Assembly (NCBI GenBank): GCA_009842245.1
Contig: VYFT01000003.1
Location: forward strand, 1-48,080
Direction: 5' to 3'
Source of the DNA: Gammaproteobacteria bacterium
GTDB lineage: Bacteria > Pseudomonadota > Gammaproteobacteria > Pseudomonadales > Azotimanducaceae
DNA: 48,080 bases
The translations under genes and the position numbers were made by a program. The notes under the pieces were generated by a model. It saw only the letters and a list, made by a program, of their open reading frames with translations. It was not told the origin of the DNA and did not search any database. Position 1 is the first letter of the stretch, and each line of letters begins with the position of its first letter. Positions 16,945-46,658 of the stretch are shown one piece after another.

Positions 16945-16966
16945 TCAGTTTGATGGACACCAACAA
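16945..16966. repeat. IS end motif, copy 1
   Basis: A 22-bp sequence starting TCAGTTTGATGG and ending CACCAACAA is identical at 46494-46515. Here it lies 26 bp before the transposase start, the usual place for an IS left end. Confidence 0.65.
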
Positions 16967-30500: not shown

Positions 30501-30594
30501 TCGCGAGTATAGATTGGTAGGTCGATTCGTTATCGACGATGAAGAAGACTACTACTCCAGCAACGTATTACAAGAAGAATCCGATGAGAATTGA
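24550..30594 (+). CDS. Giant subtilisin-like (S8) serine protease, copy B
   Basis: 2014 residues from a GTG start without a clear ribosome-binding site. A basic N-terminus (KRLRKER) and one hydrophobic helix at about 10-31 act as signal or anchor. A linker of about 110 residues varies between paralogues. Then come a two-part propeptide-like region (about 147-295), the S8 domain with Asp338 (MDTG), His375 (GHGSHV; Ser replaces the usual Thr) and Ser557 (GTSVSSP), a KP-43-like barrel (about 640-755), a CARDB-like domain, four PPC-like repeats (about 910-1437), a beta-propeller (to about 1810), and two Cys-paired repeats. It lies 79 bp before copy C. Probably an envelope-bound or surface protease; substrate unknown. 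Confidence 0.93.
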   Translation: MKRLRKERNLLVGVSSLIFLLVAVVITLIWVTKWDQEPISSELDTEVNVSAIEQIINYESTRTKKHSAVGASKPKVAIDSPHQGDISRNVNVNSYDDSIVSVVKNVRKGRMEADGTENSKSTGEINNHEWLNTSSSIDTLLQQAGESNRNWTFGWIQLKYPLQSKQIEEELRRFGASVLGQTGNLIRAKVPKNRKRLEAIAQLSWITGLGALPSTYKLGSELEEIVRDSAHWAQIPVFVVVATPNMEDLFRSELKKIGLVVGHFDASIRTFSAVLQSNQLTELVKLDFVQAVEPIAEVMALNDSVIPAIGGDALRDLGNDLGVYTGINGRSTPIGFMDTGLNTNHVALSSWRKSICGRNFVEGEDQDLWLDKGGHGSHVFGTIAGNGYFQPKYAGVAPGVEHIRVAKVLSTRGEGNELRTLQGMDFLAESTSCPAEGWTADSVKPLIVNMSLASDSLVFDGRTTGPRKLDSVVWTHRQLYVVANSNRNLYGYSNYGSAKNSLAVGAAYDNGDITFFSSRGPTVDGRLQPSLVGPGSIVFSTRGDGSYDGYSLASGTSVSSPVVAGVAALLMDASPEHREEPALVRARLMASAVRPDAWFDSEIVFPTNNTNGPGTEQTKYGMGLISARTSVSNHDVPEGWTSSGATLTLENGEYAFQDIVVPVGTTRLDVVMTWDEPPTDSIASTVLNDLNLWIDYRADCQSEPCGEYSSQSKIDTVEWVIIQDPEPGTYRIKVSGDRIFTEPPRAGVAWTMIRGPATPQLTVAVDQTTFEVENGEDHNHSVEVTVSTNGYVAAGTELYVDCRTAENKPCESFGFVSHVVSVFTRRFSGFVQREDGFGTYYHNDQSMYLGEVGHGEAQRVRLQLASESSGPLTIYLTATAWNATSDSVAVVFRESRSDTEPYIETQPKLNDTYETPTVLDSQGGVLEIDTLLATSEPGEPQLGLTGQRPTRSLWFQWTAERSGLVSFVVAPRDELPSWYLESYLPILDVYIATGYCCGIASAQYVTISRWSVQFFAEQGKEYRIRVSGTHASMPMSLNWIFGERPPNDYFADAITLTGASGSVPGYNLGATIEPGEVYGTLASTIWYRWTAPADGDWEFQIEDAQVVHLLVFVGDTIDDLRLVSGISAPGEPVSVATVQDETYHIMVASPNAFSGGWTFDDLSWELQTKARSGWDWFDLGLQLVSTESGSVSLAHEGSLGVEPDEPETTGIQTGWLKWIAPEDGRYTWYWDNPEFQLRSFSGNSVGELNVTELGANLVVVSGGREFVLDAVATDEYVISVGRAKDNNQAYTYSESSTSTELRWGKTPTNNWISGAISLSGSEGNVTGLNQFATTGSSFRTHLGYSSLWYSYEAEETGWFKFWIEGASSTAILSAFHPLESDLNPELIMASRTTRIPGEGVEVTVYIERGSTVLLRVGSTRPHSSSEFELHWSSTDPPNWLIYRGRIAEGRRDATGQVISSLSGLADMAFDSDGAFLFVSTDDGVSVFQREPTTGNLSLKQEINETEPRSFLFWDPYRECLYVHTRDTWWTIKSSSDDSSEFVLDRTEYGIGHITDNKDLGSPVLFMGNNGDYLYRSMRHEQSIYSFNSDSTFKFVGDNSVVSAAVYPSINGNYWWRWHVRDVQLLERKVGSGSFQQISKEFDASGWREVTGTFFDKDEYFFATSIDARPRANFSIYSIDRGTSTLMLSTSGQIDNLSLTDCAAAIPRKGSYAVDVLCWYGAYVVEYLPESGEVALSDYLLNFLSSRIVPDRFGRRIPSYWLSRASSGSSSVEASPDGLHIYVATNQHGILIFERLGNETTDLTDPETLPVRRLDLLQASKNQIQFNNDIAENGCITASDWVVDNVSYSVLDSKWQHRSIDSSWSDIEGTEEIGQLCSYSPTDTNDYRMVATFTRDDETIEFASNFFGDIVYERLSSLTVESGEIHLDTLSISECTEISDLVVNGVNYSVKESNWQVRDDSEVDWSDIASTVTAGELCPYDPNDSREYRLVGRFVIDDEEDYYSSNVLQEESDEN

Positions 30595-30673: not shown

Positions 30674-33600
30674 ATGTCAAAAAAAATTCAATCACTATTC
30701 CTAGTTGCGCTCGCAATCGCCATTCTCATACTTTTCAGTACTTGGCATTTGAAGAGATCGGTTAGCGAAGAAAGTACGGTTAACAGCGATCAATTTGATC
30801 GAGCACATAAAAGTGCGATCAAGCAAATCATTGACTATGAGGGCGACCGGACAAAAGAACGATTAGCAGGGGGTCCGAATCAGCCCATAGTCGACAGCGA
30901 TTCGACAGATCACCCAGACAAGTCTCCAAGTTCTAGTCCCAATGCATACGGTGCCTCGCTTGTGTCAGTAAGCAAAAGCATTCGAAAAGGAAGATTAAAC
31001 GAAGATGAGTCGGTGGGTTCACCCAGCGTCGGTGCGTTCGATAACCAAGCATGGTTGAACGACAGTTCCTCGATCGATGCGATGCTTCAACAAGCAGAGA
31101 ACGCAAACAGAAACTGGACATTTGGTTGGATTAGATCGAAACATTCGATCCAAACTGCGGATATAAAAAGAGACTTGAGTCGGTTCGATGCAAGTCTTCT
31201 GGGAGTCTCTGGAACCTTGATTCGCGTCAAAGTACCGCACAATCGAAAAGACTTAGAGGCGATCAATCTGCTATCGTGGGTTGACGGTTTTGCTGCACTA
31301 CCAAAAGAGCTTAAGTTGCTCGGTGACGTAGAAAACGTTGTAAAGGAAACCGGATCTAGGTCTCCAATTGCTATTTTTGTCGTAGTACCTACCGCGGAGA
31401 TGGAGCACTTCTTTCGTAGCGAGTTCAAGAGGATCGGAATAGTTGTTGGGCACTTTGACGCGCCGATTCGGACCTTTTCTGCAGTCATTCAGGGAAACCA
31501 GCTGACCGATCTCGTCGAGCTGGACTTCGTTCAAGCAGTTGAACCAATTGGTACAGTGTCGGCTACCCACGACTCTTCCGTACCAGCTGTGGGTGGTGAT
31601 GCGCTTCGCTCAGTGGGTAACGCGGCCGATTCCTTCACTGGATTCACAGGAGTTTCGGTTCCAATCGGGGTTATCGACACTGGACTCAACGCAAATCACA
31701 TTGCCCTCTCATCCTTCAGGAAAAGTATTTGTGGCGCTAACTTTGTCGAGGATGAGGATCACGATCTTTGGGTAGACAAATATGGGCACGGAACACATGT
31801 GACAGGAACGATAGCGGGAAACGGTTATTTTCAACCAAAGTATGCGGGAATCGCACCACGCGTAGAGCATATTCGCTTCGCAAAAGTATTGAACACCCGC
31901 GGTTATGGGTCAACATTGGACGTAATTCAAGGGATGGATTTTCTAGCAAAATCTACTTCGTGTCCAGAAGAAGGATGGACTGAAGATCAAGTGAAGCCTT
32001 TGATCGTGAATATGAGCCTTGCTCTGAACAGCCGTTTTTGGACGGGAATTTCAACCGGCGCGCGAAAATTGGACTCAATAGTTTGGACACACCGACAGTT
32101 GTATGTCGTATCCAACTCGAACCGCAGTATTTACAGTTACTCAAACTACGCGTCCGCAAAGAATTCGCTATCGGTTGGAGCTGTTCATGACAATGGCGAT
32201 ATTGCAGAAACCAGTAGTCATGGACCAACGTACGATGGTCGTTTACAACCTTTGTTAGTAGGACCGGGTGTCGACGTTATGTCTACAGCAGGCGACGGTT
32301 CATACGAAGGTTATCGTGAGTTGAGTGGAACGAGCATGTCCTCACCTTCTGTTGCTGGAGTAGCTGCTTTACTCATGGATGCCTCGCCTGAACACCGCGA
32401 AGAACCAGCATTGGTGCGTGCACGACTGATGGCCAGTGCAATTCGACCGGATGCGTGGCTCGAATCAGAACTCGCTTTTCCACAAAACAACACTAACGGA
32501 CCAGGAACCATGCAAGCCATGTACGGCATGGGTTTGGTTTCTGCGCGTACAAGTATTGTCAACCACGATGTTCCGGAGGGATGGACAAGTTCTGGTGCGA
32601 CGCTCACACTAGAGAATGATGAATATGGTTACCAAGACATCGTTGTCCCAGTTGGGACAGAGAGACTTGACATCGTAATGACTTGGGATGAACCACCAGC
32701 GGAAACGATAGCCAGCACGGTATTGAACGATCTGGATCTTTGGATTGACTTTGGAGCCGACTGTACGTCTGAACCTTGTGGGGAATATTCGTCGCAATCG
32801 AAGATCGACAACGTTGAATGGGTAATTATTCAAGATCCAGAACCGGGTACGTACCGAATCAAGGTATCAGGGGAACGTATTTACACCACCCCGCCTCGCG
32901 CGGGAGTTGCGTGGACGATGATTCGAGGTCCTACGACCCCACAGCTCTCACTGGAAGTGGACCAAACTATATACGAAGTAGCGAGCGGTGAAGAGCACAA
33001 CCATACTGTTGAAGTCACGATATCGAACGATGGTTATGTTGCTGCCGGTACGATGTTGCATGTGGATTGTCGGACTGCCGACGACAGTCCGTGCGAATCG
33101 TTGGGCGTGGAGGCTTCTGACTTTTCCAGCTTCTTACGAACTTTTAGAGGATCCGCACAAAGAGAGGATGGGATAACAACCTATCATCCCTTCGTACAGA
33201 GTATGGACTTAGGCGAAGTCGGTCATGGCGAAGAACAGCAAGTAATCCTAAAACTCGCATCCCGTTTGGAAGGACCCTTGAGAGTTTACTTCACTGTTAC
33301 CGCGTGGAACGGGAAGAGCACTAGTACTTCGGTAATTTTTCGCGAATTTGATTCTGATGACGAGCCAACCAGTGAGGCGCAACAATCACTTAACGACGCT
33401 TATGACACACCTACGCTGTTGGAGAATGGGGGAGGAGTCCTTGAAATCGACACGCTGTTGGCAGCGTCGGAGTCTGGTGAACCTATTTTTAGTGAGTCGG
33501 ATCGGCGACCCACACAATCGCTTTGGTTTCAATGGACTGCCGAGCGATCCGGTCTGGCATCGTTTGTAGTTAATCCCCGGCTTAAGCTACCCTCTTGGTA

Positions 33601-36600
33601 TTTGAATCGGTTTACTCCCGGGGTTGACATCTTTCTCCAAACAGGACACTGTTGTGGAATCGCGAGTGCCCAACTTGTTGCTTCTTCTATCTGGTCCGTG
33701 CAATTTTTTGCCGAGCAAGGGAAAGAGTATCGAATTCGAGTGAGCGGTTCTCACGCTTCGATGCCGCTGACCTTGAATTGGTTTGTTGGAGAACGGCCTC
33801 CCAATGATTACTTCGTTGACGCCATAACGCTGACAGGTGAATCCGGTACCGTATCGGGACACAACGTAGGTGCCACGATCGAACCGGGGGAGGTGTATGG
33901 CAAACTTGCTTCATCCGTTTGGTATCTATGGACCGCACCTGAAGACGGCGATTGGGAATTTCAGATAGCGGATGCGGAAGTCGTGCATGTATTAGTCTTT
34001 ACGGGTGATACGATTGATGATTTAAGGCTAGTCTCTGGTATCGCCGATCAGGGTGATCCCGTCTCCGTAGCTGCTCTTCAAGATGAAAACTATCACATTA
34101 TGGTGGCATCTCCAGACGCGTTTTCTGGGGGCGACAAGTTCGACGAACTAACTTGGGAACGGCGAACAACAACTCGTAGTGGTTGGGACTGGTTCGACAT
34201 TGGCTCACGACTACCAACTACCGAGACTGGCAGTGCATCGCTGCGACTAGGACTCACGCTGGGGGTTGAACCCAACGAACCGAAAGCGTCGGGTATTCAA
34301 ACAGGATGGCTGAAATGGACCTCACCTAGGGACGGCCGGTTTACCTGGTATTGGGACACTCTTGGCCTCCAACTCAACGCATTTTCGGGCCAAGCGGTAG
34401 GAGAACTGAGTGTGGCGGAAGCGGATGAGAATAACGTTGTTGCGAACGGATCGGAGTTCGTTTTCGATGCAGTTGAGGGAGAAGAGTACGCAATATCCGT
34501 AGGACGCGCGAACGCCAACAATCAAGCTTACACCTTCACGAGAGTCCCTACAAGTACTTTGCTACGTTGGGGAGAAACTCCCACAAACAATTGGATCAGC
34601 GGCGCGATTTCACTGAGTGGTAGCACCGGGAATGTATCCGGTTCCAACCAATTTGCGACGACAGGCTCTTCTTTTCGTCGACACTTAGGTTATTCGTCTC
34701 TTTGGTACTCATATGAAGCCGATGAAACAGGTTGGTACAAATTTTGGGTTGAAGGTGCTAATTCGACATCCGTTTTATCAGCGTTTCATCCGTCGGAGTC
34801 GAATCTGAATCCTGAACTAATAATGGCCTCACGAACTACAAGGATACCGGGCGAAGGCGTGGAGGTTGTTATTTACATTGAACGAGGTTCAAGCGTACTG
34901 TTGCGAGTGGGAAGTACACGCGCCCACACGAGTTCAAATTTTGAGCTACATTGGTCCACTACCGACTCGCCAAATTGGCTCATCTACCGAGGACGAGTTG
35001 CCGATGGACAACGGGATTTCTCTGGACTAGTAATTTCGTTGTTGGGATTAGCTGATCTGGCGTTTAATTCCGATGGAACGCTTCTTTTTGCCTCCACAGC
35101 GGCGGGTATTAGTGTGTTCGAGCGCGAGCCCATGACAGGAACCCTGAGCTTGCAACAGGAGATCAATGAACCCAACGCTAGTAGTTTCCTACTCTGGGAC
35201 TCATACCGCGACCGCCTCTATGCGCACAGCGAAGACTCTTGGTGGACCTTTAGCGCTAGTTCGCAAGACTCATCGGAGTTTATTCTTGACCAAACCGACC
35301 ATGGGATTGGCCCCCTTCTTGGAAGCAAGAGCAAAGGAAGTCCTGTGTTGTTCATGGGTAATAGTGGAGACTATCTATATCGCACAATAAATAACTCTCA
35401 GTCTGTCTATTCATTTAACTCGGACGGTACGTTAAACGTCGTGGGGGATATTTCTGTATTTAGCCAAGATGTATTTCCGTCGACCAATGGCAACCATTGG
35501 TGGCAATGGTGGCAATGGGAAATGCAACTACTTGGACGCCAAGTTGGCAGCGGTTTATTTCAACGGGTCTCAAAACCTTGGATAAATACTCATCGAAGCT
35601 TTTTCACTGGTGCTTTCTCCGGCGATGATGATTACTTTTTCACCGCATCTCGGGAAGCGCGCGTACAAGCAGACTTAACGTTTTATACGATTGATTATGT
35701 AACCGGTGTTGTTGAACCAAGTTTTTCAGATCAAATTGATAACCTAGGCATCTCAATATGTATCGCAGCAATCCCAAGAACGGGGTCCCAAGCCGTAGAT
35801 GTGCTCTGTCGGTATGGTGGTTACGTCGTGGAATATTCCCCTGAAGCCGGTGAAATTAGTTTGAGCGACCATATTGCTAACGTAAATTATCGAACCCTGA
35901 TTCCAGATCGTTTTGGTAGGCGTATACCACCGTACCAATTTGCTGTTACTAGAAGAGGAGGAACGAGTCCTGTCGAAGCAAGTCCCGATGGTCGACACGT
36001 CTACGTCGCTACTAGCGACCATGGAATTCTCATATTTGAGCGTTTTGGAAACGAAGTAACAGACTTGGCTGAAATTGAGGCGCAACGGTTTCGCCGACTT
36101 GATCTATTACAAGCATCCAAGAATCAAATTCAGTTCAATGACGATATTGCTGTAGACGGTTGCCTCACTGCATCAGACTGGGTGGTCGACAATGTGAGAT
36201 ATTCCGTCGTTGATTCAAAGTGGCAGCGACGCACCGTCGACTCGTCTTGGTCGGATATTGAAGGAACAGAAGAGACTGGTCAATTGTGTTCGTATTCGTC
36301 TACAGACTCAAGAGAATATCGTATGGTTGCAACGTTTATGCGCGACGGTGAGTCGATTGAATTCGCGAGTAATTTCTTTGGTGAAATCGTCTATGAACGC
36401 CTAACAGAATTGACGGTAGAATCGGGCGAAATTTCACTGGACACACTCGCCATATCCGAATGTACGGAGATAATAAATTTAGAAGTGGACGACGTGAAAT
36501 TCACGGTGAAAGAGTCTAAATGGCAGGAGAGAGAAGATTCGAGTTCAGATTGGTCGGACATCGAATCAACAATCACCGCCGGGGAACTATGCCCCTATGA

Positions 36601-36700
36601 ACCGGAAGACGATGGGGAGTATCGTTTGGTGGGTCGGTTTGTTATCGACGATGAACCAGACTACCACTCCAGCAACGTATTACAAGAAGAATCTGAGTAG
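30674..36700 (+). CDS. Giant subtilisin-like (S8) serine protease, copy C
   Basis: 2008 residues, ATG start. An N-terminal helix at about 9-23 (LFLVALAIAILILF) is a signal or anchor. The triad is Asp335 (IDTG), His372 (GHGTHV) and Ser554 (GTSMSSP). Domain order is as in copies A and B: propeptide region 145-290, S8 about 310-605, KP-43-like barrel 639-749, CARDB-like about 755-890, PPC-like repeats beginning near 907, 1044, 1170 and 1304, beta-propeller about 1434-1800, and two ~100-residue C-terminal repeats from 1809 and 1906, each with two Cys and a SKWQxR...WSDI core. It follows copy B directly and may share its transcript. The S8 fold is certain; the biological target is not. Confidence 0.93.
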   Translation: MSKKIQSLFLVALAIAILILFSTWHLKRSVSEESTVNSDQFDRAHKSAIKQIIDYEGDRTKERLAGGPNQPIVDSDSTDHPDKSPSSSPNAYGASLVSVSKSIRKGRLNEDESVGSPSVGAFDNQAWLNDSSSIDAMLQQAENANRNWTFGWIRSKHSIQTADIKRDLSRFDASLLGVSGTLIRVKVPHNRKDLEAINLLSWVDGFAALPKELKLLGDVENVVKETGSRSPIAIFVVVPTAEMEHFFRSEFKRIGIVVGHFDAPIRTFSAVIQGNQLTDLVELDFVQAVEPIGTVSATHDSSVPAVGGDALRSVGNAADSFTGFTGVSVPIGVIDTGLNANHIALSSFRKSICGANFVEDEDHDLWVDKYGHGTHVTGTIAGNGYFQPKYAGIAPRVEHIRFAKVLNTRGYGSTLDVIQGMDFLAKSTSCPEEGWTEDQVKPLIVNMSLALNSRFWTGISTGARKLDSIVWTHRQLYVVSNSNRSIYSYSNYASAKNSLSVGAVHDNGDIAETSSHGPTYDGRLQPLLVGPGVDVMSTAGDGSYEGYRELSGTSMSSPSVAGVAALLMDASPEHREEPALVRARLMASAIRPDAWLESELAFPQNNTNGPGTMQAMYGMGLVSARTSIVNHDVPEGWTSSGATLTLENDEYGYQDIVVPVGTERLDIVMTWDEPPAETIASTVLNDLDLWIDFGADCTSEPCGEYSSQSKIDNVEWVIIQDPEPGTYRIKVSGERIYTTPPRAGVAWTMIRGPTTPQLSLEVDQTIYEVASGEEHNHTVEVTISNDGYVAAGTMLHVDCRTADDSPCESLGVEASDFSSFLRTFRGSAQREDGITTYHPFVQSMDLGEVGHGEEQQVILKLASRLEGPLRVYFTVTAWNGKSTSTSVIFREFDSDDEPTSEAQQSLNDAYDTPTLLENGGGVLEIDTLLAASESGEPIFSESDRRPTQSLWFQWTAERSGLASFVVNPRLKLPSWYLNRFTPGVDIFLQTGHCCGIASAQLVASSIWSVQFFAEQGKEYRIRVSGSHASMPLTLNWFVGERPPNDYFVDAITLTGESGTVSGHNVGATIEPGEVYGKLASSVWYLWTAPEDGDWEFQIADAEVVHVLVFTGDTIDDLRLVSGIADQGDPVSVAALQDENYHIMVASPDAFSGGDKFDELTWERRTTTRSGWDWFDIGSRLPTTETGSASLRLGLTLGVEPNEPKASGIQTGWLKWTSPRDGRFTWYWDTLGLQLNAFSGQAVGELSVAEADENNVVANGSEFVFDAVEGEEYAISVGRANANNQAYTFTRVPTSTLLRWGETPTNNWISGAISLSGSTGNVSGSNQFATTGSSFRRHLGYSSLWYSYEADETGWYKFWVEGANSTSVLSAFHPSESNLNPELIMASRTTRIPGEGVEVVIYIERGSSVLLRVGSTRAHTSSNFELHWSTTDSPNWLIYRGRVADGQRDFSGLVISLLGLADLAFNSDGTLLFASTAAGISVFEREPMTGTLSLQQEINEPNASSFLLWDSYRDRLYAHSEDSWWTFSASSQDSSEFILDQTDHGIGPLLGSKSKGSPVLFMGNSGDYLYRTINNSQSVYSFNSDGTLNVVGDISVFSQDVFPSTNGNHWWQWWQWEMQLLGRQVGSGLFQRVSKPWINTHRSFFTGAFSGDDDYFFTASREARVQADLTFYTIDYVTGVVEPSFSDQIDNLGISICIAAIPRTGSQAVDVLCRYGGYVVEYSPEAGEISLSDHIANVNYRTLIPDRFGRRIPPYQFAVTRRGGTSPVEASPDGRHVYVATSDHGILIFERFGNEVTDLAEIEAQRFRRLDLLQASKNQIQFNDDIAVDGCLTASDWVVDNVRYSVVDSKWQRRTVDSSWSDIEGTEETGQLCSYSSTDSREYRMVATFMRDGESIEFASNFFGEIVYERLTELTVESGEISLDTLAISECTEIINLEVDDVKFTVKESKWQEREDSSSDWSDIESTITAGELCPYEPEDDGEYRLVGRFVIDDEPDYHSSNVLQEESE

Positions 36701-37161
36701 CAAACCTTCGCCAGAATACACCACGCCTATTCCAAGTTTGTGTAGAACGTGAGTTTGTCCGATTGAGGCTTGGGACGAATTTTCCGCTGGTCGGATTGCA
36801 CCTGTGGTTTGTTGGCTCATCCGTAAAGGGTAAGATACAGCTAACTTTGAAGTTCGTCTGGAAAGTACAGAGATAGCATTTAATGGCGAGTCAAACTCTT
36901 ATGCTGAAACGAGTTCTCTAGAGTCCTTTTCGATTACACTCTTCGTCGAATGATTGATCTGTATTTCGACCCAAAATTGACCGTCCATCAAGCAGAAACA
37001 GCTTCAGTCGCTCGTGGAAATTGTGATTCGAGAGCGGTCGATCCCGACACTCAACCCAGCATTGGGACCTTCTACAGTTTCGATTCCACAACCGTAAGTG
37101 CTGGCTATCGGGTTCGCCTTAAAAAATTAGTTTCGAGGATACTGACTCGCTAAACAGCATT
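36701..37161. other. Gene-free stretch between convergent genes
   Basis: About 460 bp between giant protease copy C and the convergent barrel gene. A 67-codon plus-strand frame near 36950 has no recognisable protein features. No clear terminator hairpin is seen. Confidence 0.45.
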
Positions 37162-38390: not shown

Positions 38391-39980
38391 TCACATAACT
38401 TCACTTCCTGGGTATTTGCCTTTCCAATTCTCATTTTTCTGAATTTTCTCATCCTTAGTTTGACTCACGCTGTGAATTTCACCAATTTCAGCGAAATTAA
38501 AACTCAGTCCCCAAGCAACCCCCATCCGTCCATAATCTAAATCAAAGCCGGCTGTGTCCATCGATTTCGGAAGTTCGTCGGAAGGAACTAATCGCGTACC
38601 GTCGTTTGGAAGAGACTGTTTCATCCAAGGGTCGAGATCATCTACGATTGACCGGTGGAGACGGTGGTTCGCCCCTCCGCCAACGAGGTAAATAGGCAAT
38701 CTCTCTCCCGCTTTCCATCGGTCAGAATGTGGGTCTCTAAACCGCCGAGTGGAATTAATTAGCCATCTCAATGTGTGTCTACATTGTTCGACAAACGCAT
38801 CTTTCGATGTACCTTCTCTTTGATACCAGTAGTACGACTCCACTCCGAGTGGCTGTATGTTAGCAGTCATGAAGGAATATATAGGATCTTTTCCTAGTTG
38901 TGGGTTAGAGTGTAGCGTGAACGTAGTAACGTCGAGTGTCATTGCGCCAACGTCGATCATCATGTAGAGTCCGTCGGCTCTACGTTCTGATTTGGCGAAT
39001 GAGGTCATTTCTGCAGCCGCTTCAGGCACCACGGCTACACCTCGTTCTTCGGCAATGTCAATGAATGTTCCTGCGTGAATTATTTCAGGTTCACTCAGTA
39101 CCAATTCTGTGCTGTCAGCCGCTATTGGTAAACCAACGTCGGCTAATAAAAGAGCCGCGGAGACGACACGACGATACGATTCAGCAACCTTGGGTTTGTC
39201 AAAACTGTCGGTCGGCATCCCAACGTTTATTCTCCATACGGGTTCACGAGTTCGAAAGGCCTGCGCTTGATTCGTTGTCAGCCATCCCCTGACGTAACTG
39301 ATGACATAAGCCAGATACGCTGTTGCGATTTGTTCATGGTTTACTTGTTCTACTAGAGAGGTGCGAAATCGGTTGGAATTGACACTGCCCACCACCAGGT
39401 CTTGCTTGAGTGTGTCGAGAACGGTAGCATTGGCTATCGGCCACATGAATATTGATCCATCGTCTTTTAACCAGAGAATGGTGCGCCATAGGTGTGGGTT
39501 ACCAGGAACACGGCAAGGAATTGGAGCCGGGATCGCAAACGTTGGTTGCCCAGACTCATAAGGGAAGCGGGCGACCACTTTTGTTGAACTGGTTCCAAAA
39601 TCTATACCTAAATTTATGTAGAGTTTTTCAGCATCATCTTTGGTTGTGTTGTTCTCGTTAAGTTCAAGCATTTTTTCAAGCTCAGTACAGTCGAAGTCGA
39701 AGTTCGGACGCGGTGCCGGTTCACGACTGCGCATTCCGGTAGGAAAATCCCAACTTTCGAATTCCGCAATTGGTGGAAGTTCAGTTTTTGGAGGGAGTGG
39801 ACTGTCGACAGCTCGCCGAACGAGCTTCGTTGAATTCTTAGATCGTTGCCTGTGCAACGCGGCCTCAATTTTCGATTGGCTTTCTTTTCCGATTTTTTGA
39901 AGTGCTTTTCTCTTACCCCGTGACAATTTTGAACCGAGAGTGGTAGACTCATTTCTTGTATTCTTGTAGTGATTCGACAT
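38391..39980 (-). CDS. Actin/Hsp70-fold ATPase paired with a SNF2 helicase
   Basis: 529 residues. The first ~120 are basic then proline- and acid-rich, probably a flexible tail. The nucleotide-binding fold then shows phosphate-1 GIDFGTSSTK (125-134), a VVPEAAAEM connecting motif (317-325), phosphate-2 MIDVGAMTLDVT (341-352) and the adenosine motif YLVGGGANHRLH (431-442). These place it in the Hsp70/actin superfamily; no substrate-binding domain of DnaK type is present. AGGAA lies ahead of the ATG. It is 25 bp downstream of the helicase gene, so the two are co-transcribed. Its job is presumably to regulate or assemble with the helicase (inference). Confidence 0.85.
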   Translation of the reverse strand: MSNHYKNTRNESTTLGSKLSRGKRKALQKIGKESQSKIEAALHRQRSKNSTKLVRRAVDSPLPPKTELPPIAEFESWDFPTGMRSREPAPRPNFDFDCTELEKMLELNENNTTKDDAEKLYINLGIDFGTSSTKVVARFPYESGQPTFAIPAPIPCRVPGNPHLWRTILWLKDDGSIFMWPIANATVLDTLKQDLVVGSVNSNRFRTSLVEQVNHEQIATAYLAYVISYVRGWLTTNQAQAFRTREPVWRINVGMPTDSFDKPKVAESYRRVVSAALLLADVGLPIAADSTELVLSEPEIIHAGTFIDIAEERGVAVVPEAAAEMTSFAKSERRADGLYMMIDVGAMTLDVTTFTLHSNPQLGKDPIYSFMTANIQPLGVESYYWYQREGTSKDAFVEQCRHTLRWLINSTRRFRDPHSDRWKAGERLPIYLVGGGANHRLHRSIVDDLDPWMKQSLPNDGTRLVPSDELPKSMDTAGFDLDYGRMGVAWGLSFNFAEIGEIHSVSQTKDEKIQKNENWKGKYPGSEVM

Positions 39981-40005
39981 TCAGATCGTTTCCTGGTCTA
40001 TTAAA

Positions 40006-43000
40006 TTAACAGCGGACCTCGACTAATAAGAGGCTTATGTCAGCAACCTCCGGAATTGGCGATCGTTGTTGTTCAATTTCGTGTCTTCTCGCTTGGAGGA
40101 TTTTTTCTAATTTAGAGATTTGTGCGGTTCGAGCTAACACCAAGTTGCGTAAGTTGCTGGCTCTTTGGAGGTCATTAGCACTTTCGGCTGATGCTGCGTT
40201 TTGTATTAGGTCAGCCTTGATACGGTAAAGAGTTTCAAACTTTCTTTCAAAGTGTTTTTCAAGAGCACGCAGTCGTATATTCAGCCGGTCTTCTACTTCA
40301 GCTGTTGTCTGTAAGAAAAACGTTTCAAATTGTTTGTCTGCCTCCGGCAATACAACGTCACCTAGTAATGTGGCGGCTTGTTTGAACAAACGATGGCTAG
40401 AAGGGTTAACCATAGGAGGTTTGTTATCGGATACTTCGTTTGCAATAGCTTCCGCGTAGTTCGAAGAAATTAGCTCTCCTGTCTCAACATTTGCTCCAAT
40501 GTAACCTATTCGTGTGTTAGTGTGTGCGTCTGATGTGTTGTTGTTGCTACTCCACCGATTAATTGCCACGACGTACACGCCTTGATCTAACTTTCCTGTC
40601 GAATCCAATCCATCGATTACCGCCGCTATTGCTTGAGCTTCTCGGTTGGAGATGTCTTTTTGATCGATATCTACGCAAAATCTTACTAATGGATGCAACT
40701 GAGATATCTGTTCGACTCGACCCGATTTTTGTACTACCGACTCGGTGAAAACAAATCTCTGACGCGCATCGTCGGCTAATATACGTGTGCTTCCGTTGAG
40801 GTTGTGTTTTGATAAGTAGTAGGAGAGTGCACTAAAACCATCGTTCGAAAAAGAAATCTTAAACTTGTCCGAGCTAGGGGGACTGCTCTCGATTATTGTT
40901 CCGGGGAAACTTTGCTCCAAACGATCCTTCACATATACGAGAACATCTTGACGATTTAACCACCTACGGTTGTTTCTGCTCTCGTAAATACGCTCGAGGA
41001 TATAGTCCCCATGTTGAACTAAAGATCCTGCTTCAGACTCAAGTCGATCGGTTTGTTCCCGTTGAGTTTCCAACGCTTGTGCCGTTTCGTCGATTAATGC
41101 TTCCTTTTGTCGATCGGTTAATCTCGGGTCGAGAAGCTTTGTTGTCATTTCGCGAATTTGTCTACCGAGAATAGCCTCCATTTCTCCTAGAACTTTTTCG
41201 CTAGTGGTCAGGCGGTCATACAGTCGGTGAAAAATGCGACTATCTATTGTGTTGTCAAACACCAGGTTCAATACTTGAATCTTTTCACTCTTTTGTCCTA
41301 GACGATCAATACGACCTATTCTTTGTTCAAGCCGCATCGGATTCCACGGAATGTCATAGTTAACGATTGTGGAACAGAACTGCAGATCGACTCCCTCACT
41401 TCCAATTTCTGAGGATAGTAGTATTGGTGTGAGTTGGTGCTGTTCAAAACGCTCTAACACTGTCGATCTCGGTTCGGAAATACTGCCGTGAAGAAGTTCA
41501 GTTCTAATCGCATTGTCGGTTAAACGAGACTGAAGATATTTAAGCGTCGGTTTAAAGCTCGAGAAGATGATGACTTTCTTGTGCGGTTCCTTGCACCAGA
41601 GCTGATTGAGTTCATCTAATAGACTTTGAAATTTCGTGTCATTCTCTTGCAAAAGCTTAGTCAGACCTAGTTCTCTCGTCCGTTTTGCAATTTTCGTAAC
41701 AAGTGGTCGAGCGTTTGAAGTTTCCTCGTCAAGATCAGTGTCTGTCTCCTCTATTCCTTCTAGGGTACTGTTCGGTAATATGGTTGCCCAATACGCAGAT
41801 GCCGCCGCTAAACTAGATGTCAATAGACGTTGCGGCATCGACAGTAGAAATAGTTCGTTCGCGTTTTTCGACTCGGCGTATTCGTTAACGACTGCGGATA
41901 TTTCTTCATAGAAACGCTGTTCGTACTCGTTCATCGTGAATGTGGGAGTCGACGGATCACGAAAAACGCGTTTCAATTTAACATCACGTCTTCTTGTTCT
42001 GTTAACGTAGTTCGCAAGTTGATTGACATGTTCGAGACGCACAGCTAACTCTGATCGTAGAGTAGTATCCAAGGGTTGAGAGTTCAATCTTGACAATATT
42101 TGCCCCAAGGTTTTGCTTTCGCATAGCAGTTCATGTTGTTGGGCTTGGACAAGGTGCTCTTCGATATCCTGTTTGGTACCCTTTTTAAGAAGAAGATCGC
42201 GAGCTTTAACGAGTGGTGCATTAACGTCAATGAGTTCATTAAGTGTATTTGCATATTCAAACGTATCGGGGTCAACCATCTTCAAAATAGAATGGAGATC
42301 TCGGTTCTGAAGATGGATTGGGGTCGCGGAAAGAAAAAGTCTATGACTCGATACTCCGCTGGTTAAGTTCCCTATAGCGTTTAGCATTGTGGAAGGGTTT
42401 CGCATGTGATGAGCTTCGTCAAAGACTAAGAGATCAACCAATGGTTCCCCATCGCTTTCGTCGGAAAGAAATCGTGCGAGTTCGACCCTAACTCCCTGTT
42501 TATCTCTCTCTGTTTCCTCGAGTTTGTCCCACCCTCGTGGTGGGCGAAGTCCTTGCATGCTACAAACCAGTGCAAAGCCTGCTCCAGTCTCCTTCGAGCG
42601 ACGCAAAGTTTTTAGCAATGTACTTGCGTTCGCCAACTGCACATCTACACCAAATTTACTTCCTAGTTCGAGTTGCCACTTTTCGCACAGAGTCTTTGGA
42701 CAAGCTACTAGTAGGCGATTGCAATCGTGTCTAGCTCGAAGTTCAGTCCAAATTAGCCCCGCTTCGATTGTCTTTCCGAGACCTACTTCATCTGCGATTA
42801 GCAGGGAATCGGTCGGTGATTCCATTAGTTTGATAACTGGCTTAAACTGGTGAGGGTAGAAGTCTGTCTCGGTTGCTTCCATGCTATAAACAACCTCGCT
42901 GAGTCGACCACTTACTCGGAGTCGTGTTAACGTACGTCGGAGCCAGTCAGGACTGACAAATTTACCGTTCACAAAACGATCATAACAACTCTCGCCGTTC

Positions 43001-43167
43001 TCTGGAACATGCTCAAGTGCTGAATACGGTAACCAGGACATCTGACCATCAGAAAATCGCACGGTAACCATCCGTTGTCCTGCGATGTTCTTCTCTGCGT
43101 CTTGTAGAACTCCAGCACGTACGGGATCGCGCTTCAAACGAACAAGGTCACCCGGTTCTAGTTGCAT
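40006..43167 (-). CDS. RapA/SNF2-type superfamily 2 helicase
   Basis: 1053 residues. The N-terminal ~50 residues form a small beta domain (GDLVRLKRDPVRAGVL...VTVRFSDGQMSWLP) like the Tudor/KOW-like start of RapA relatives. Helicase lobe 1 has Walker A DEVGLGKTIEAGLIW from 126 and the DEAH box at 250-253; lobe 2 has LHGSISEPRSTVLERF, EIGSEGVDLQ and motif VI QRIGRIDRLGQ near 613-623. The last ~350 residues end in a long coiled coil (ALEKHFERKFETLYRIK onwards). SNF2 proteins translocate on double-stranded DNA and remodel bound protein. The ATG has no strong ribosome-binding site. It is operonic with the actin/Hsp70-like ATPase and lacks a nuclease or methylase domain. Confidence 0.9.
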   Translation of the reverse strand: MQLEPGDLVRLKRDPVRAGVLQDAEKNIAGQRMVTVRFSDGQMSWLPYSALEHVPENGESCYDRFVNGKFVSPDWLRRTLTRLRVSGRLSEVVYSMEATETDFYPHQFKPVIKLMESPTDSLLIADEVGLGKTIEAGLIWTELRARHDCNRLLVACPKTLCEKWQLELGSKFGVDVQLANASTLLKTLRRSKETGAGFALVCSMQGLRPPRGWDKLEETERDKQGVRVELARFLSDESDGEPLVDLLVFDEAHHMRNPSTMLNAIGNLTSGVSSHRLFLSATPIHLQNRDLHSILKMVDPDTFEYANTLNELIDVNAPLVKARDLLLKKGTKQDIEEHLVQAQQHELLCESKTLGQILSRLNSQPLDTTLRSELAVRLEHVNQLANYVNRTRRRDVKLKRVFRDPSTPTFTMNEYEQRFYEEISAVVNEYAESKNANELFLLSMPQRLLTSSLAAASAYWATILPNSTLEGIEETDTDLDEETSNARPLVTKIAKRTRELGLTKLLQENDTKFQSLLDELNQLWCKEPHKKVIIFSSFKPTLKYLQSRLTDNAIRTELLHGSISEPRSTVLERFEQHQLTPILLSSEIGSEGVDLQFCSTIVNYDIPWNPMRLEQRIGRIDRLGQKSEKIQVLNLVFDNTIDSRIFHRLYDRLTTSEKVLGEMEAILGRQIREMTTKLLDPRLTDRQKEALIDETAQALETQREQTDRLESEAGSLVQHGDYILERIYESRNNRRWLNRQDVLVYVKDRLEQSFPGTIIESSPPSSDKFKISFSNDGFSALSYYLSKHNLNGSTRILADDARQRFVFTESVVQKSGRVEQISQLHPLVRFCVDIDQKDISNREAQAIAAVIDGLDSTGKLDQGVYVVAINRWSSNNNTSDAHTNTRIGYIGANVETGELISSNYAEAIANEVSDNKPPMVNPSSHRLFKQAATLLGDVVLPEADKQFETFFLQTTAEVEDRLNIRLRALEKHFERKFETLYRIKADLIQNAASAESANDLQRASNLRNLVLARTAQISKLEKILQARRHEIEQQRSPIPEVADISLLLVEVRC

Positions 43168-43479
43168 CTAGTTACTGATTGCTGACGAGAAAATACACTT
43201 TCTCAGAATTACAGTCACCACTGTTTGATGAGTACACGAGACTAGAGAGTGTTGGGGAGTGAATTTCACAGGAAGATCGCAGTTCTAGTTCTTAAATGTC
43301 GAGAACAGATTGCACGATTCAATTTCAGCATGAACTTTTCTCCATGCTGAGGCTCTCCGTTTAGAAGCAGTTCCGCAACAAGATGATCCAGTACCAGTGC
43401 AGCCATGAAACATCCCTAGACTCCCGATACAAAAAGTATTTTTCGATACAGGCGCGCGGGACACTGCGCACTCTTTGGC
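43168..43479. other. Gene-free stretch with a small hairpin
   Basis: About 310 bp between the Cas2-like gene and the helicase, all transcription being on the minus strand. It contains a perfect 8-bp inverted repeat, TCAGCATG (43325-43332) and CATGCTGA (43343-43350). This may end the Cas2-like transcript or sit in a shared leader; no T run is attached. Confidence 0.45.
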
Positions 43480-43740
43480 TCAATTGAGTTTTGTCCAACT
43501 ACACTTGGAGCGGTACTCAGATATTTGAGCAACGTAATAGGTATCGCCATTTTTGAGATCTAGGAATGAGTTCATTTGAGACTGAAGTTGCATGGGTGAA
43601 AGTTCAGAATCCAAGCGGAGGATTGTTGGACAAACATTGTGTCTCCACGCGTTTCCTAGACTGGAAATCTGATTTTCTACGCTAACGTATCCCAACCAGT
43701 TGTGGTTTTTAAGAGTGTAGTGAAGAATGTACCGGTTCAT
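43480..43740 (-). CDS. Orphan Cas2/SinR-like small protein
   Basis: 86 residues from the ATG at 43740 with GAAGGA 7 nt upstream; an in-frame TTG five codons earlier overlaps that ribosome-binding site. The pattern is that of the SinR/Cas2-like ferredoxin fold: strand NRYILHYTL, helix, a SLGNAWRHNVCPTILRL block (usually LG.WWH...TW.I), a helix led by LSPMQLQSQM, then strand DTYYVAQIS. Cas2 proper is a CRISPR adaptation subunit or nuclease; SinR-like relatives occur without CRISPR and have unknown roles. There is no Cas1 and no repeat array here. It sits upstream of the SNF2-ATPase operon, on the same strand, 312 bp away. Confidence 0.6.
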   Translation of the reverse strand: MNRYILHYTLKNHNWLGYVSVENQISSLGNAWRHNVCPTILRLDSELSPMQLQSQMNSFLDLKNGDTYYVAQISEYRSKCSWTKLN

Positions 43741-43780
43741 TAAACTGTCCTTCAAGTCGTTTTGTTCTCAGATTCAATTT

Positions 43781-43831
43781 ACCTAATCCAAGTTAATCAT
43801 TCCTTTAACAAGTTGTTTGGTTGGATTAGGT
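43781..43831. promoter_or_regulatory. Perfect 11-bp inverted repeat upstream of the Cas2-like gene
   Basis: ACCTAATCCAA (43781-43791) and TTGGATTAGGT (43821-43831) are perfect inverted copies with a 29-nt spacer, which itself holds GTTAA and TTAAC. The near arm is 40 bp before the Cas2-like start codon. It fits a paired operator site or a cruciform in the leader. Confidence 0.55.
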
Positions 43832-44250
43832 CAAGAAATAACTACAGTGATTTCACGCTCATCTTTTCATTTTGTAGTACATCTAGGAGGGTTATTTTAG
43901 ACTGCGCTGATTCATTTCAGCGCTGATTGAAATCTTCATAGATTAGAGCACTACTTCAGTCTGATAATGAGTTTTCATTCGCCGAATTTATTCCCAAAGT
44001 AAAGGTGTCTGAGAGCTTTTTGGAACAAGATCCGCAGTACGCGCTAAACCTCCGACACGCGAACTACGTGCTCTAAGTCGTCATCGGACACCTCCAGTAG
44101 GTCATCGAACGGTTGGAGAATTGTTTGTTCATCGACCCCAGTAATGTGTTCGAGCTGGTAGCCACTGATGTAACGAAAAATCTGGTTGCCGTTTGTGAGT
44201 GATCGGAAGACTTAGAGCGGTTGAAAAGAGTGTTTTCGTAGATTCGTACT
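43832..44250. other. Gene-poor stretch with a hairpin and an open fragment
   Basis: It contains a perfect 7-bp hairpin (GCGCTGA at 43914-43920, TCAGCGC at 43927-43933). On the minus strand, 44044-44211 is open for 55 codons without a start and translates to a protein-like sequence including YISGYQLEHITGVDEQT; it may be a gene remnant. No family recognised. Confidence 0.35.
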
Positions 44251-44613
44251 ATGGAACTTCGCACTAGGACGCCACCCGTACAGACAGGGCTCTACGGTTC
44301 GCGAATGCATGATCCTGCGATGCTCGAAGACCCCAGGTACAACTTCATTTGCGACGTTAATGGGTTCGAGCGCGTTTATTACTCGCGCCTTGGCGCGGTA
44401 ATTGTCAACTTGGGCATGCCGTTGAAAGAAACTCTCACGGTCGATGAGCAGTTGACGCTTCTGAGTGAGGAAAACCGCAAGAAGGTGATCAATCGGTATG
44501 GTACGGGAAACATCATTTTGGATGCGATCGAAAGACAATATGGTAAGCCCACTCCAACAGAATTGCGCAAGTATTGGCGCACGGATCAGAAGCCGGCTGA
44601 GGAACTAGTTTAG
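44251..44613 (+). CDS. Unknown protein, atypical composition
   Basis: 120 residues from ATG without a clear ribosome-binding site. Codon third positions are richer in G and C than in neighbouring genes (many cgc, acg, ttg, gag), hinting at foreign origin. There is no signal peptide or membrane segment. The C-terminal half is helical and charged (SEENRKKVINRYGTG, ELRKYWRTDQK). I recognise no family. A minus-strand frame of 108 codons overlaps it, but this frame has the more natural residue order. The lack of upstream signals may mean a truncated gene. Confidence 0.45.
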   Translation: MELRTRTPPVQTGLYGSRMHDPAMLEDPRYNFICDVNGFERVYYSRLGAVIVNLGMPLKETLTVDEQLTLLSEENRKKVINRYGTGNIILDAIERQYGKPTPTELRKYWRTDQKPAEELV

Positions 44614-44872
44614 CCAGTACCTCGTCAACTCCTTTGAAGTCTATCAGAGCAAACTCAGAATTGGCTGGAAGTAGAAATTGACGTTCGAGTTCAAATCTCA
44701 CATTTCGCTTGAGATGTTCACCTGTCGCATCCCATAGTGCTCGGTCTAATCTTTGCGCATTGTGCCGAGCCTCAGTTAAAAGATTCGTACAGTGGTAGAC
44801 ATTAGTAACGAATTCATAGTTACTCTGTCTCAGGCATCTTCGACACAGGCGGGCAGTTAAGACGCGAGTGAA
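44513..44872 (-). pseudogene. Minus-strand coding remnant without a start
   Basis: This frame is open for 119 codons and reads like protein: LCRRCLRQSNYEFVTNVYH (a CxxC pair), EARHNAQRLDRALW, then RFELERQFLLPANSEFALID. It has no ATG; the only GTG in a usable place is at 44701, deep in the frame. Its 3' end runs antisense into the 44251 gene, so one of the two has probably lost its original end by deletion. Family not recognised. Confidence 0.35.
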
Positions 44873-44943
44873 TTAGAGCGTATCGGTTCGGCAATCCAGT
44901 TTCCACTACCAAATGGAGCTACCCGTGAGTATCGTTATGTAGG

Positions 44944-44970
44944 TTTTGTGATGATATAGACATCACAAAA
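44944..44970. terminator. Perfect 10-bp hairpin with T tract
   Basis: TTTTGTGATG, a 7-nt loop, CATCACAAAA, followed on the plus strand by TTTTTCG. Two G-T pairs and an A-T pair extend the stem. The form is that of a terminator or an operator; no intact gene ends just before it, supporting the view that this patch is debris of former genes. Confidence 0.5.
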
Positions 44971-45022
44971 TTTTTCGCGATTTGAATTGAATGAAGCTCT
45001 GCCGGTGTCGTATGAAGTCGCT

Positions 45023-45230
45023 TCAGTTTGATAGACCGCTTGTTTGAGATTTGCTGTAGAAATTGGTTTACCAGGTACCACCGTACATGAGCTTCTGGGG
45101 ACTGATTAATCCAGTGCTGAGCGCATTCAGTGAGGATTGTAAAACCCTTAGGGGTAGGAAAGACTCCCGTTTGACTTCTGTACGAGTGCTAGACCATGGT
45201 CGCAGTCGATGTCCGATCAAATTGATTTTC
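45023..45230. mobile_element. Possible degraded IS-derived mini-element
   Basis: The left end TCAGTTTGATAGAC (45023) matches the IS end motif of 16945 and 46494 with one change. The right end near 45208-45230 (GATGTCCGATCAAATTGA) is a rough inverted version of it. No transposase frame lies in the roughly 210 bp between. Degenerate, so only tentative. Confidence 0.25.
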
Positions 45231-45272
45231 AAGAGAGTCGCCTAGTCTTTACTGCTCTTCAACTTGGCGGGG

Positions 45273-46217
45273 TTAATTCTTGGCTCGAGTTTCTTTAAAG
45301 CCCTCGATCACAACATCTTCGATATTAGACCCAAATTTGGTGCCGTCTATTACCTTGGGTAGTTTACGACGTGTTGCACGGTGAAGAGGATGCGGAAAAT
45401 ATGCAATACCCGACAACCCTTGTTCGACACTAGGCAAAATTTTCTTGATACCGCTCCATCCCGATAGCCAGATTCTTGGAGAGTCGGTTTGATGGGGGTG
45501 TTGAATTACGATAGAAGGTTCAAATCGCTCAGCTTCGCTTCGCATATTCTTAATACGGATTCGCCGATTCATTCCTAATCTCTTGTTTTCAGGAATCCTA
45601 GGGTTAAACATATTTAGGTCATGACATCCCAAAACGAGGATCCGTAATCCATCAACTGTAACACAATGCGTACTCAAATCGACGACATGAACAAGGGAGT
45701 GTTGTTGCTCGTCTGTTGGGTAAGATTTTCCCGTCCACGCTACTATTGAAGCTCTCCTGCCAGTGAGTTTGAGAACGGCTACAAGTTCGATGTGAGGGCG
45801 TTTTATTGCCTTTTTTCCAATCTTGTCGTCCCTTATGTGCTTGAGATCTATACCGATGGTTAAGTATCTCGTTCGTTTTGCGAGAACCCTGATTGCTTCT
45901 TCGGAGAGGACACGACGAATGCATTTTTCTCCATATCCCTTCAACACTTCGAAGCTGCTATTATCGGATATCCATCCCGTATTTATCGCGTCTAGATCGA
46001 TTGGGAACTGGTGAAGTATGAATCCTCCTGGCAAAACCGTGAAATCGACTCTTTGTACTCCACTCGGCCAATCTTTATGAAGAGCTCTCACGATCAACGT
46101 ACGGGCTGCAGAAATGTTATCACCTCGTGTGTCTCGACGTTGTAATCGACCATTGACACACAACCTGACGATGCTAGCAGTTTCTGGTTTAACTCTAGAG
46201 TTTATTGGGGTTTCCAT
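45273..46217 (-). CDS. Protein of unknown function
   Basis: 314 residues from the ATG at 46217, chosen because GGAG lies 9 nt upstream; the open frame continues 18 codons further. There is no signal peptide or membrane segment, so cytosolic. Features: a basic N-terminal third (ARTLIVRALHKDW), a central beta-rich stretch with LVHVVDLSTHCVTVDGLRILVLGCHDLNMFNPR, then IVIQHPHQTDSPRIWLSGW. The spaced His/Asp/Asn residues (VDLS, GCHDLN, QHPHQ) recall a metal- or nucleotide-binding enzyme core, for example a calcineurin-like phosphoesterase, but the order does not match a family I can name. It is a single gene flanked by IS-end fragments. Confidence 0.65.
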   Translation of the reverse strand: METPINSRVKPETASIVRLCVNGRLQRRDTRGDNISAARTLIVRALHKDWPSGVQRVDFTVLPGGFILHQFPIDLDAINTGWISDNSSFEVLKGYGEKCIRRVLSEEAIRVLAKRTRYLTIGIDLKHIRDDKIGKKAIKRPHIELVAVLKLTGRRASIVAWTGKSYPTDEQQHSLVHVVDLSTHCVTVDGLRILVLGCHDLNMFNPRIPENKRLGMNRRIRIKNMRSEAERFEPSIVIQHPHQTDSPRIWLSGWSGIKKILPSVEQGLSGIAYFPHPLHRATRRKLPKVIDGTKFGSNIEDVVIEGFKETRAKN

Positions 46218-46658
46218 TCTATTGGTCTCCAACCGATTTCCATTACAACTTCCATGGTAGCGTCTGAGCACGTCTTTGGGAAAACTGCATAGTCACTCTT
46301 TGATCAACAAACTGCACCGTTTGCCCTCTCATGGAGAGCCCCGACACGATTCGTACTCGATTTCTATTCGTAGGCTTCCAACAAACCAAGGCTAATCCAT
46401 ACTAAAGCACTGTTTCGATCTGTCGCTGTTTAGGTTCCTTTGTTAAGAAAGTTTTCATGTTCTAAATTGAAAATTAAACCCTGTGAAGTTGCCTCAGTTT
46501 GATGGACACCAACAATAAGAAACTTAATTCCATTTGCAGGTACCGATTTACCATATTAGATCCGGTTATTTTTCAAAATTTAGCAACGCTTCAGGGATCA
46601 AACATGCATCCAACCACCGATTATTAGAAACACAGCACTACGACATGGCGATGCAACC
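46218..46658. other. Gene-free stretch with IS end motif
   Basis: About 440 bp between two minus-strand genes. Apart from the IS end motif at 46494-46515 I see no coding frame or clear hairpin. It must include the promoter for the 46217 gene. Confidence 0.45.
46494..46515. repeat. IS end motif, copy 2
   Basis: Identical over 22 bp to 16945-16966 (starts TCAGTTTGATGG, ends CACCAACAA). No transposase sequence follows, so it is a solo end left by a deletion or a former insertion. Confidence 0.6.

Follow-up and report, generated by a model that had tools for sequence, protein, structure and literature searches.

The DNA analysed here, a 48,080-nucleotide stretch of contig VYFT01000003.1 from a gammaproteobacterium of the Azotimanducaceae (assembly GCA_009842245.1; hereafter the window), carries on its minus strand a two-gene operon in which the gene for a Snf2-type helicase is followed, after 25 bp, by that for a predicted ATPase of the actin/Hsp70 superfamily (Table 1). 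An earlier note, made from the sequence and its open reading frames (ORFs), had described such an operon with intact nucleotide-binding motifs in both products. An ORF check places both genes exactly as it had them, and the motifs GIDFGTSSTK, VGAMTLDVT and VGGG (ATPase) and DEVGLGKT, DEAH and QRIGRIDRLGQ (helicase) are all present. Its fold assignments, an actin/Hsp70-fold ATPase and a RapA/SNF2 helicase, likewise stand, with family-profile, Pfam and Foldseek matches in agreement.

Table 1 Features of the helicase–ATPase operon (window coordinates)
Feature	Position	Strand	Evidence
Snf2-family (DrmD/RapA-like) helicase/translocase, 1053 aa, operon gene 1	40006..43167	-	ORF; PADLOC; Pfam; Foldseek
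Helicase N-terminal strands, residues 8-53	43009..43146	-	AlphaFold, block mean pLDDT 61-83
Helicase Walker A DEVGLGKT, residues 126-133	42769..42792	-	Intact in 15/15 pairs
Helicase motif II DEAH, residues 250-253	42409..42420	-	Intact in 15/15 pairs
Helicase motif VI QRIGRIDR, residues 615-622	41302..41325	-	Intact in 15/15 pairs
Helicase C-terminal long helices/coiled coil, residues 941-1035	40063..40347	-	AlphaFold, block pLDDT 53-79, lower at extreme end
Intergenic gap, 25 bp	39981..40005	-	ORF positions
Predicted actin/Hsp70-superfamily ATPase, 529 aa, downstream gene	38391..39980	-	ORF; family profile matches ParM/DnaK/MreB; lengths
ATPase N-terminal extension, residues 1-120, net charge +5	39621..39980	-	0 to 292 residues across 15 members
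ATPase phosphate-1 motif GIDFGTSSTK, residues 125-134	39579..39608	-	Present in 15/15 pairs
ATPase phosphate-2 motif DVGAMTLD, residues 343-350	38931..38954	-	Present in 15/15; aligned to DnaK DLGGGTFD
ATPase adenosine motif GGG, residues 434-436	38673..38681	-	Present in 15/15 pairs

The helicase contains the Pfam domains SNF2-rel_dom (6.6e-18) and Helicase_C (3.2e-21), and the PADLOC DrmD model PDLC02623 aligns with it from end to end (753 bits, residues 1–1051). Scores are far lower with the PADLOC models BrxHI and BrxHII (209 and 150 bits) and with the NCBIfam RapA equivalog (155.1 bits, below the cut-off of 576); NCBIfam DISARM_DrmD (NF038317) gives 424.8 bits for a cut-off of 610. RapA is the best PDB sequence match, and it is also the top Foldseek match of an AlphaFold model (1099 columns, E 3.8e-27, 18% identity); eukaryotic remodellers come next, one entry being titled as a motor–ARP (actin-related protein) structure. 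The model has a mean predicted local distance difference test score (pLDDT) of 66.8, with most of the core at 75–90 and residues 836–929 below 50. It runs from N-terminal strands through the Snf2 core and α+β parts to long C-terminal helices, elements shared with RapA and BrxHII; the latter is described as RapA-like (PMC12839542). In the model the N-terminal strands probably form a small barrel, in the position that this element has in RapA and BrxHII, and the C-terminal helices are a candidate docking part. The protein is DrmD-like, and structurally nearest to RapA.

Taken alone, the ATPase of the window matches no Pfam or NCBIfam model, and a PDB sequence search returned nothing better than E 0.45. 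A 15-row family profile finds ParM first in the PDB (3.8e-7), then DnaK (0.0014), BiP and MreB (0.013). Compared by hhalign with a profile of DnaK-sized ORFs (25 ORFs chosen by size from loci L016–L041, not individually checked), it aligns with a probability of 97 over residues 315–451, a stretch that covers the phosphate-2 and adenosine regions. The phosphate-1, phosphate-2 and adenosine motifs occur in all 15 members, and G125, D127, G129, T130, K134, K192, E320, D343, G345, T348 and G434–436 are invariant; the catalytic columns were assigned from the generally known roles of DnaK residues. Motifs and columns are common to this family and to ParM, DnaK and MreB. Set against those proteins, the family has a variable N-terminal extension, its profile matches cover only parts of the fold, and there is no Hsp70 substrate-binding domain, since in each of the 15 members just 34–53 residues come after the final core motif. 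The window protein is built from an extension of about 120 residues, a nucleotide-binding domain and a 37-residue tail. PADLOC offers a weak PDC-M61B match that falls short of full length (24 bits, residues 212–365 only), and the Aminobacter homologue scores 17 bits with the same model. To judge from its sequence, the protein is the nucleotide-binding domain of an actin/Hsp70-superfamily member; since the core is retained without a substrate-binding domain, it is probably an active nucleotide-binding switch or an actin-like protein and not a chaperone. The ATPases of one sub-branch (L062:7003-8397 and L064:6502-7938) end in paired CxxC motifs, which we take to resemble those in the zinc-binding region of DnaJ.

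These features bear on whether the operon encodes a RapA-like transcription factor with its own chaperone, serving RNA polymerase recycling or a stress response and having no part in defence. Both the structural and the PDB sequence matches of the helicase are led by RapA, and the partner belongs to the Hsp70/actin superfamily. By the NCBIfam RapA cut-off, which it stays far under, the helicase is nevertheless not RapA; together with an ATPase devoid of a substrate-binding domain and a patchy, partly plasmid-borne distribution, this makes the explanation unlikely.

The two genes lie together in every intact relative assembled. In 15 assembled pairs, the window included, they are adjacent and on the same strand without exception. 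The helicase comes first in 14, at gaps that depend on the start codons chosen and range from -26 to +25 bp (without the window, the 13 other pairs of this order span -26 to +14 bp); five of the 15 pairs overlap by exactly 4 bp. The Leptolyngbya pair is the exception, with the ATPase first and a 98-bp gap. This set retains the near-duplicates L010/L063 and L045/L046 and leaves out L009 (another Sphingobium plasmid, whose ATPase shares its protein accession with that of L008), an additional 83-residue ATPase fragment on the Rippkaea plasmid record, and a genus relative, G013, described below.

A tblastn search of 72,556 plasmid records located the helicase in six (E ≤ 1e-50), two of them near-identical Sphingobium copies, with the ATPase adjacent in all six. 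The window ATPase as query recovers five of these records, and two homologue queries add Leptolyngbya. Eight of 397 genomes of the phylum encode the helicase at E ≤ 1e-70. All five scoring at least 954 bits (the source genome of the window, G605, G705, G650 and G615) are accompanied by the ATPase, and none of the three at 455 bits or below (G477, G481 and G535) is. The class of G605 (338 genomes) contributes four helicases, two high-scoring and paired (G605 and G863) and two low-scoring without an ATPase (G850 and G947). Five were found in 321 genomes of the window's own class: those of the source genome and G241 score highly and are paired, those of G139 and G099 score low and have no ATPase, and the low-scoring one of G372 runs off its contig, which hides its downstream neighbour. 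The source genome and G605 are counted in more than one of these draws. Across 219 loci, the ORFs reaching at least 290 bits with the ATPase profile adjoin a helicase, apart from G013 and short stretches that end earlier, and the remaining ORFs among the matches listed score 38 bits or less; the 15 profile rows match by construction.

Viruses yielded little. No relative of the ATPase was found in the viral collections (query A1) or in 50,697 phage records, and in the phage records the helicase search returned three incomplete matches (E ≤ 1e-20) that lie in unannotated entries. Scanning the viral collections with the helicase gave, among the best 80 of 311 confirmed relatives, one diverged pair (L070), whose ATPase as query matched solely its own contig. 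On another viral-collection contig, a 447-residue ORF with a weak actin/Hsp70-like match (L115:6436-7779, 28 bits) lies just upstream of a different Snf2 helicase, possibly a further pairing of this kind. An ATPase search of genome contigs returned one locus, the broken G013 copy. A class-wide search with A1 at E ≤ 0.001 gave matches in 236 of 369 genomes; those listed beyond the source genome and G241 cover for the most part some 60 residues within frames about 650 residues long, and we take them to be DnaK cross-matches because 25 of the 26 loci L016–L041 carry an ORF of that size. Weak ATPase matches in G113 and G297, without this helicase alongside, were also rejected.

The surveys support the view that helicase and ATPase are a conserved unit in Pseudomonadota and Cyanobacteria, patchy and partly plasmid-borne. 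None of the outcomes that the earlier note had named as refuting occurred: the homologues proved neither mostly unpaired or in core-genome housekeeping contexts nor an exact match to a characterised system.

The partners are also inherited together. Helicase and ATPase distances correlate across the 15 pairs (Mantel r 0.95, p 1e-4), and across 13 pairs with one of each near-duplicate removed (r = 0.91). In two near pairs the ratio of nonsynonymous to synonymous substitution rates (dN/dS) is 0.13–0.19 for both genes, indicating purifying selection, and it is 0.19 for the ATPase piece compared with the G013 copy. A helicase tree built by a quick method groups 14 Hsp70-partnered rows with strong support (SH-aLRT 99), with the diverged L070 outside and unresolved. 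Close to the source genome the ATPase is sparse, being present in 4 of 58 relatives (that genome and three others, one of them broken). The broken copy is that of G013 (L047:17358-18821), which has an in-frame stop and no adjoining helicase; the DNA beside it, where the contig terminates, matches window 45013-45149. The G013 pair appears to be decaying, an assembly error being possible and the helicase having been looked for beside the ATPase only.

Conservation of this kind speaks to a further explanation, in which the operon is a fragment of a degenerate DISARM system, with DrmD left behind after the loss of DrmA, DrmB, DrmC and the methylase and the ATPase as a passenger. The end-to-end PDLC02623 match at 753 bits is what such a remnant would give. 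Against this stand the unmet NCBIfam DrmD cut-off, the recurrence of the identical pairing in distant bacteria, purifying selection in two near pairs and in the G013 comparison, and the placement of 14 of 15 helicases in one supported clade. Moreover, the MZB/DUF1998 domain (PF09369), typical of DrmB, has no match in the source genome (94% complete), and the same model matches 8 of 14 control genomes. We regard the explanation as already largely refuted and its probability as very small. As seen here, the pair of the window is not a DISARM member: its genome gave no MZB/DUF1998 match, and the helicase scores under the NCBIfam DrmD threshold. Where DISARM has DrmA, DrmC and a methylase, none of which was matched among the scanned neighbours, this helicase has a fixed actin/Hsp70-fold partner. 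PglZ, BrxC and a methylase, which would point to BREX, were not matched among the nine scanned window neighbours either, and no methylase or nuclease family was found there, as the earlier note had said in setting both systems aside. The data suggest that a helicase recognised by a 'DrmD' model may be part of a distinct system that has no name yet.

The lower-scoring helicases form a clade of their own in the tree (L065, L066, L157, L158, L159, L161, L072, L069, L067 and L068), and directly downstream of them lies a protein of about 1050 residues from a single family. Six of these ten rows built the partner profile and the other four match it, L067 fragmentarily and L068 more weakly; the two genes overlap by 4 bp in five of the six profile loci. 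All five partner proteins scanned contain the Pfam sacsin domain, and both of those scanned with PADLOC match TmtA, which we take to be Tiamat. Like the window pair, this sister clade joins a related Snf2 helicase to a dedicated chaperone-fold ATPase encoded directly after it; the partner here is of the GHKL/Hsp90 type, in contrast to the actin/Hsp70 fold of the window. Because the sister helicases precede a sacsin-type partner instead, the sequences point to one kind of Snf2 motor that has one or the other of two chaperone-fold ATPases as its partner.

Recognised defence or nuclease families occur at 8 of the 15 loci, a raw count and no measure of enrichment. McrC and AAA_5 are found at L007 (with Mokosh-like, Hachiman and AbiE genes), L061 (with a Cas4/DUF2779 nuclease of the RecB/Cas4 type) and L062 (with a Mokosh-like gene). 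L008 has an Azaca-like PLD protein (ZacB, 6.9e-13), and L064 a Mokosh-like superfamily 1 (SF1) helicase, a PLD/ZacB-like protein and a PDC-M27C/ZacC-like helicase. L042 matches PDC-S06 at 842 bits and, weakly, LmuB/JetC (19–31 bits), L063 holds DpdF/GajB-like and PDC-S68 genes, and type I-D CRISPR cas genes lie about 7 kb from the pair at L048. The annotated neighbours at L011 include toxin–antitoxin genes and XerD. At L007, L061 and L062 the AAA_5 and McrC genes are homologous from locus to locus, and the helicases beside them sit on three separate branches, a pattern that can be produced by repeated joining or repeated loss. As McrC occurs in just 17 of 199 phylum genomes, chance adjacency at three loci is very unlikely.

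Such neighbours could mean that the pair is a regulator of restriction systems, an accessory that serves to load or control nucleases such as McrBC or the Azaca-like ones and has little activity by itself. The McrC genes on three helicase branches and the Azaca-like PLD genes at two loci (L008 and L064) fit this. At the window, however, the pair persists with no recognised nuclease among the scanned neighbours, and McrC (PF10117) was not found in its genome; on balance we consider this improbable, if the least so of the explanations that compete with a defence module. The Azaca (ZacABC), Mokosh and McrBC homologues share a gene cluster with the pair in several relatives; they are neighbours and not the pair itself, and they were not found among the scanned window neighbours, where ZacABC had no match. 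(Zac denotes Azaca; PMC12278908.) An Hsp70-like ATPase associated with McrBC-type restriction is described for CoCoNuT systems (CnuD and Hsp70-fused McrB; PMC11090510); CnuD keeps a nucleotide-binding/substrate-binding unit and has HEAT-like repeats, and its Walker A-like motif is degenerate. The window ATPase differs in consisting of the nucleotide-binding domain only, with intact motifs, and in its fixed Snf2 partner. The pair is not a CoCoNuT, given the lack of an McrC-type family in the genome and the domain unit and degenerate motifs of CnuD.

Plasmid carriage raises the separate question of maintenance, with a ParM-like actin driving segregation or replication of a mobile element together with the helicase. 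ParM chains are the best PDB relatives of the ATPase family, and in three of the six plasmid records the displayed stretch includes ParA or ParB genes. Yet these three plasmids have ParA or ParAB of their own, 9 of the 15 pairs were taken from genome assemblies (that of G241 being a single 2.16-Mb contig), and several gene-cluster partners are nucleases. Maintenance is an unlikely function, on a par with the RapA-like role.

The window itself offers a variable setting. The earlier note had placed the operon next to decayed mobile DNA, which is confirmed only in part: the segment does vary within the genus and includes a multi-copy repeat, but no transposase was identified. The 24-nucleotide repeat TGAAGTYGYYTCAGTTTGATRGAC occurs four times with 0–3 mismatches (16935-16958, 36983-37006, 45013-45036 and 46484-46507), where shuffling predicts zero occurrences. 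Some relatives in the genus have several copies of related sequence, partly at contig ends, and in G004 (L218) the repeat adjoins an ORF related to window 19439-23011. An insertion-sequence origin was considered and dropped as unproven, no transposase having been identified. In G013 just 17 bp separate an MscS gene from the end of a subtilase-like one, an arrangement that looks like the window site minus segment 36703-46626; the subtilase-like gene is nearer the window paralogue at 97-5829 (81%) than that at 30674-36700 (74%), and the empty-site junction is ambiguous because the flanking gene has paralogues. In G007, MscS and β-barrel genes flank about 10 kb of different DNA without the pair. 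G011 (L217, G011:C22) holds window 43479-46481 at 82% identity, and the ATPase was not found in G011. Three related, very large genes of 1910–2014 residues lie at 97-5829, 24550-30594 and 30674-36700; the two scanned give subtilase-type matches, and one G013 stretch matches all three. Upstream of the pair, an ORF of 332 residues (45273-46271) has no Pfam or PADLOC match.

We propose that the two genes constitute one module against invading DNA, phage or plasmid or both, in which the actin-fold ATPase gates the Snf2 motor, and we give this about an even chance of being right. The helicase would be a double-stranded-DNA translocase of the DrmD/RapA kind that binds foreign or replicating DNA, moves along it, and strips bound proteins or RNA polymerase or presents the DNA to a nuclease. 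The ATPase, having a nucleotide-binding domain only, would most likely bind the helicase and take no part in protein folding; as an ATP/ADP switch it may hold the motor off or license it. Neighbouring modules would supply the effector nuclease (McrC, PLD or RecB/Cas4-type) in several relatives. Because the pair stands alone at the window, it may there block the invader through the motor itself or use a nuclease encoded elsewhere. Loose analogues exist in Hachiman, whose helicase is described as sensing damage and controlling a nuclease (PMC12278908), and in DISARM, whose DrmAB is described as autoinhibited (PMC9142583).

Several observations count against this proposal. The pairing counts are not blind, the search profiles having been built from paired loci, and it is the genome draws that test new genomes. 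PDLC02623 at E ≤ 0.001 also matches in every one of the 14 control genomes and, within the source genome, at three further sites (62–66 bits), and the sister-clade helicases score 372–388 bits with it; given the cross-reaction in controls, only a high score is informative. The whole-chain template modelling score (TM-score) between the helicase model and RapA is just 0.36–0.38, so the RapA domain arrangement is not reproduced, and the AlphaFold model of the ATPase, from an alignment of few sequences, reaches a pLDDT of 35.6. PADLOC found no defence family among the nine main window ORFs (19439 to 47852) beyond subtilase-type and weak IetS matches, and none among the two neighbours scanned at L045. 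L046, L010, L011, L070 and L156 lie outside the PADLOC scan, and the neighbours at L156 include a housekeeping enzyme resembling PurL.

The antiphage or genome-surveillance pattern seen in the earlier note is partly supported, by the conserved, patchy pair and by its neighbours at 8 of 15 loci, and not by the window copy, which has no recognised defence neighbour beyond the subtilase type. It had also been unable to assign the pair to a named system. None fits, although the helicase, being covered by the PADLOC DrmD model, is more familiar than was thought. No description of the helicase–ATPase pair was recognised among the matches listed in the full-text literature, a collection outside which most subscription papers lie. 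Sequence comparisons thus favour a Snf2-based type of defence operon with an unusual and consistent partner, probably a small defence module still without a name.

Several antiphage systems include Snf2-type helicases, and we know of little on how they are switched on. Eukaryotic chromatin remodellers such as SWI/SNF and INO80 contain actin/Arp modules. That the pair is the bacterial counterpart of these Snf2–actin/Arp modules, a DNA-translocating motor lastingly tied to an actin-fold nucleotide switch of its own and turned against invading DNA, and that the sister clade makes gating by a chaperone fold a general device achieved with two unrelated folds, is a tentative idea that we hold to be doubtful, if somewhat likelier than any of the competing explanations above. 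With just two proteins, one of them a dedicated ATPase, the module opens the switching of Snf2 motors to direct test in a laboratory host. If the partner does act as the switch, bacterial immunity would be linked to the actin-containing chromatin remodellers of eukaryotes.

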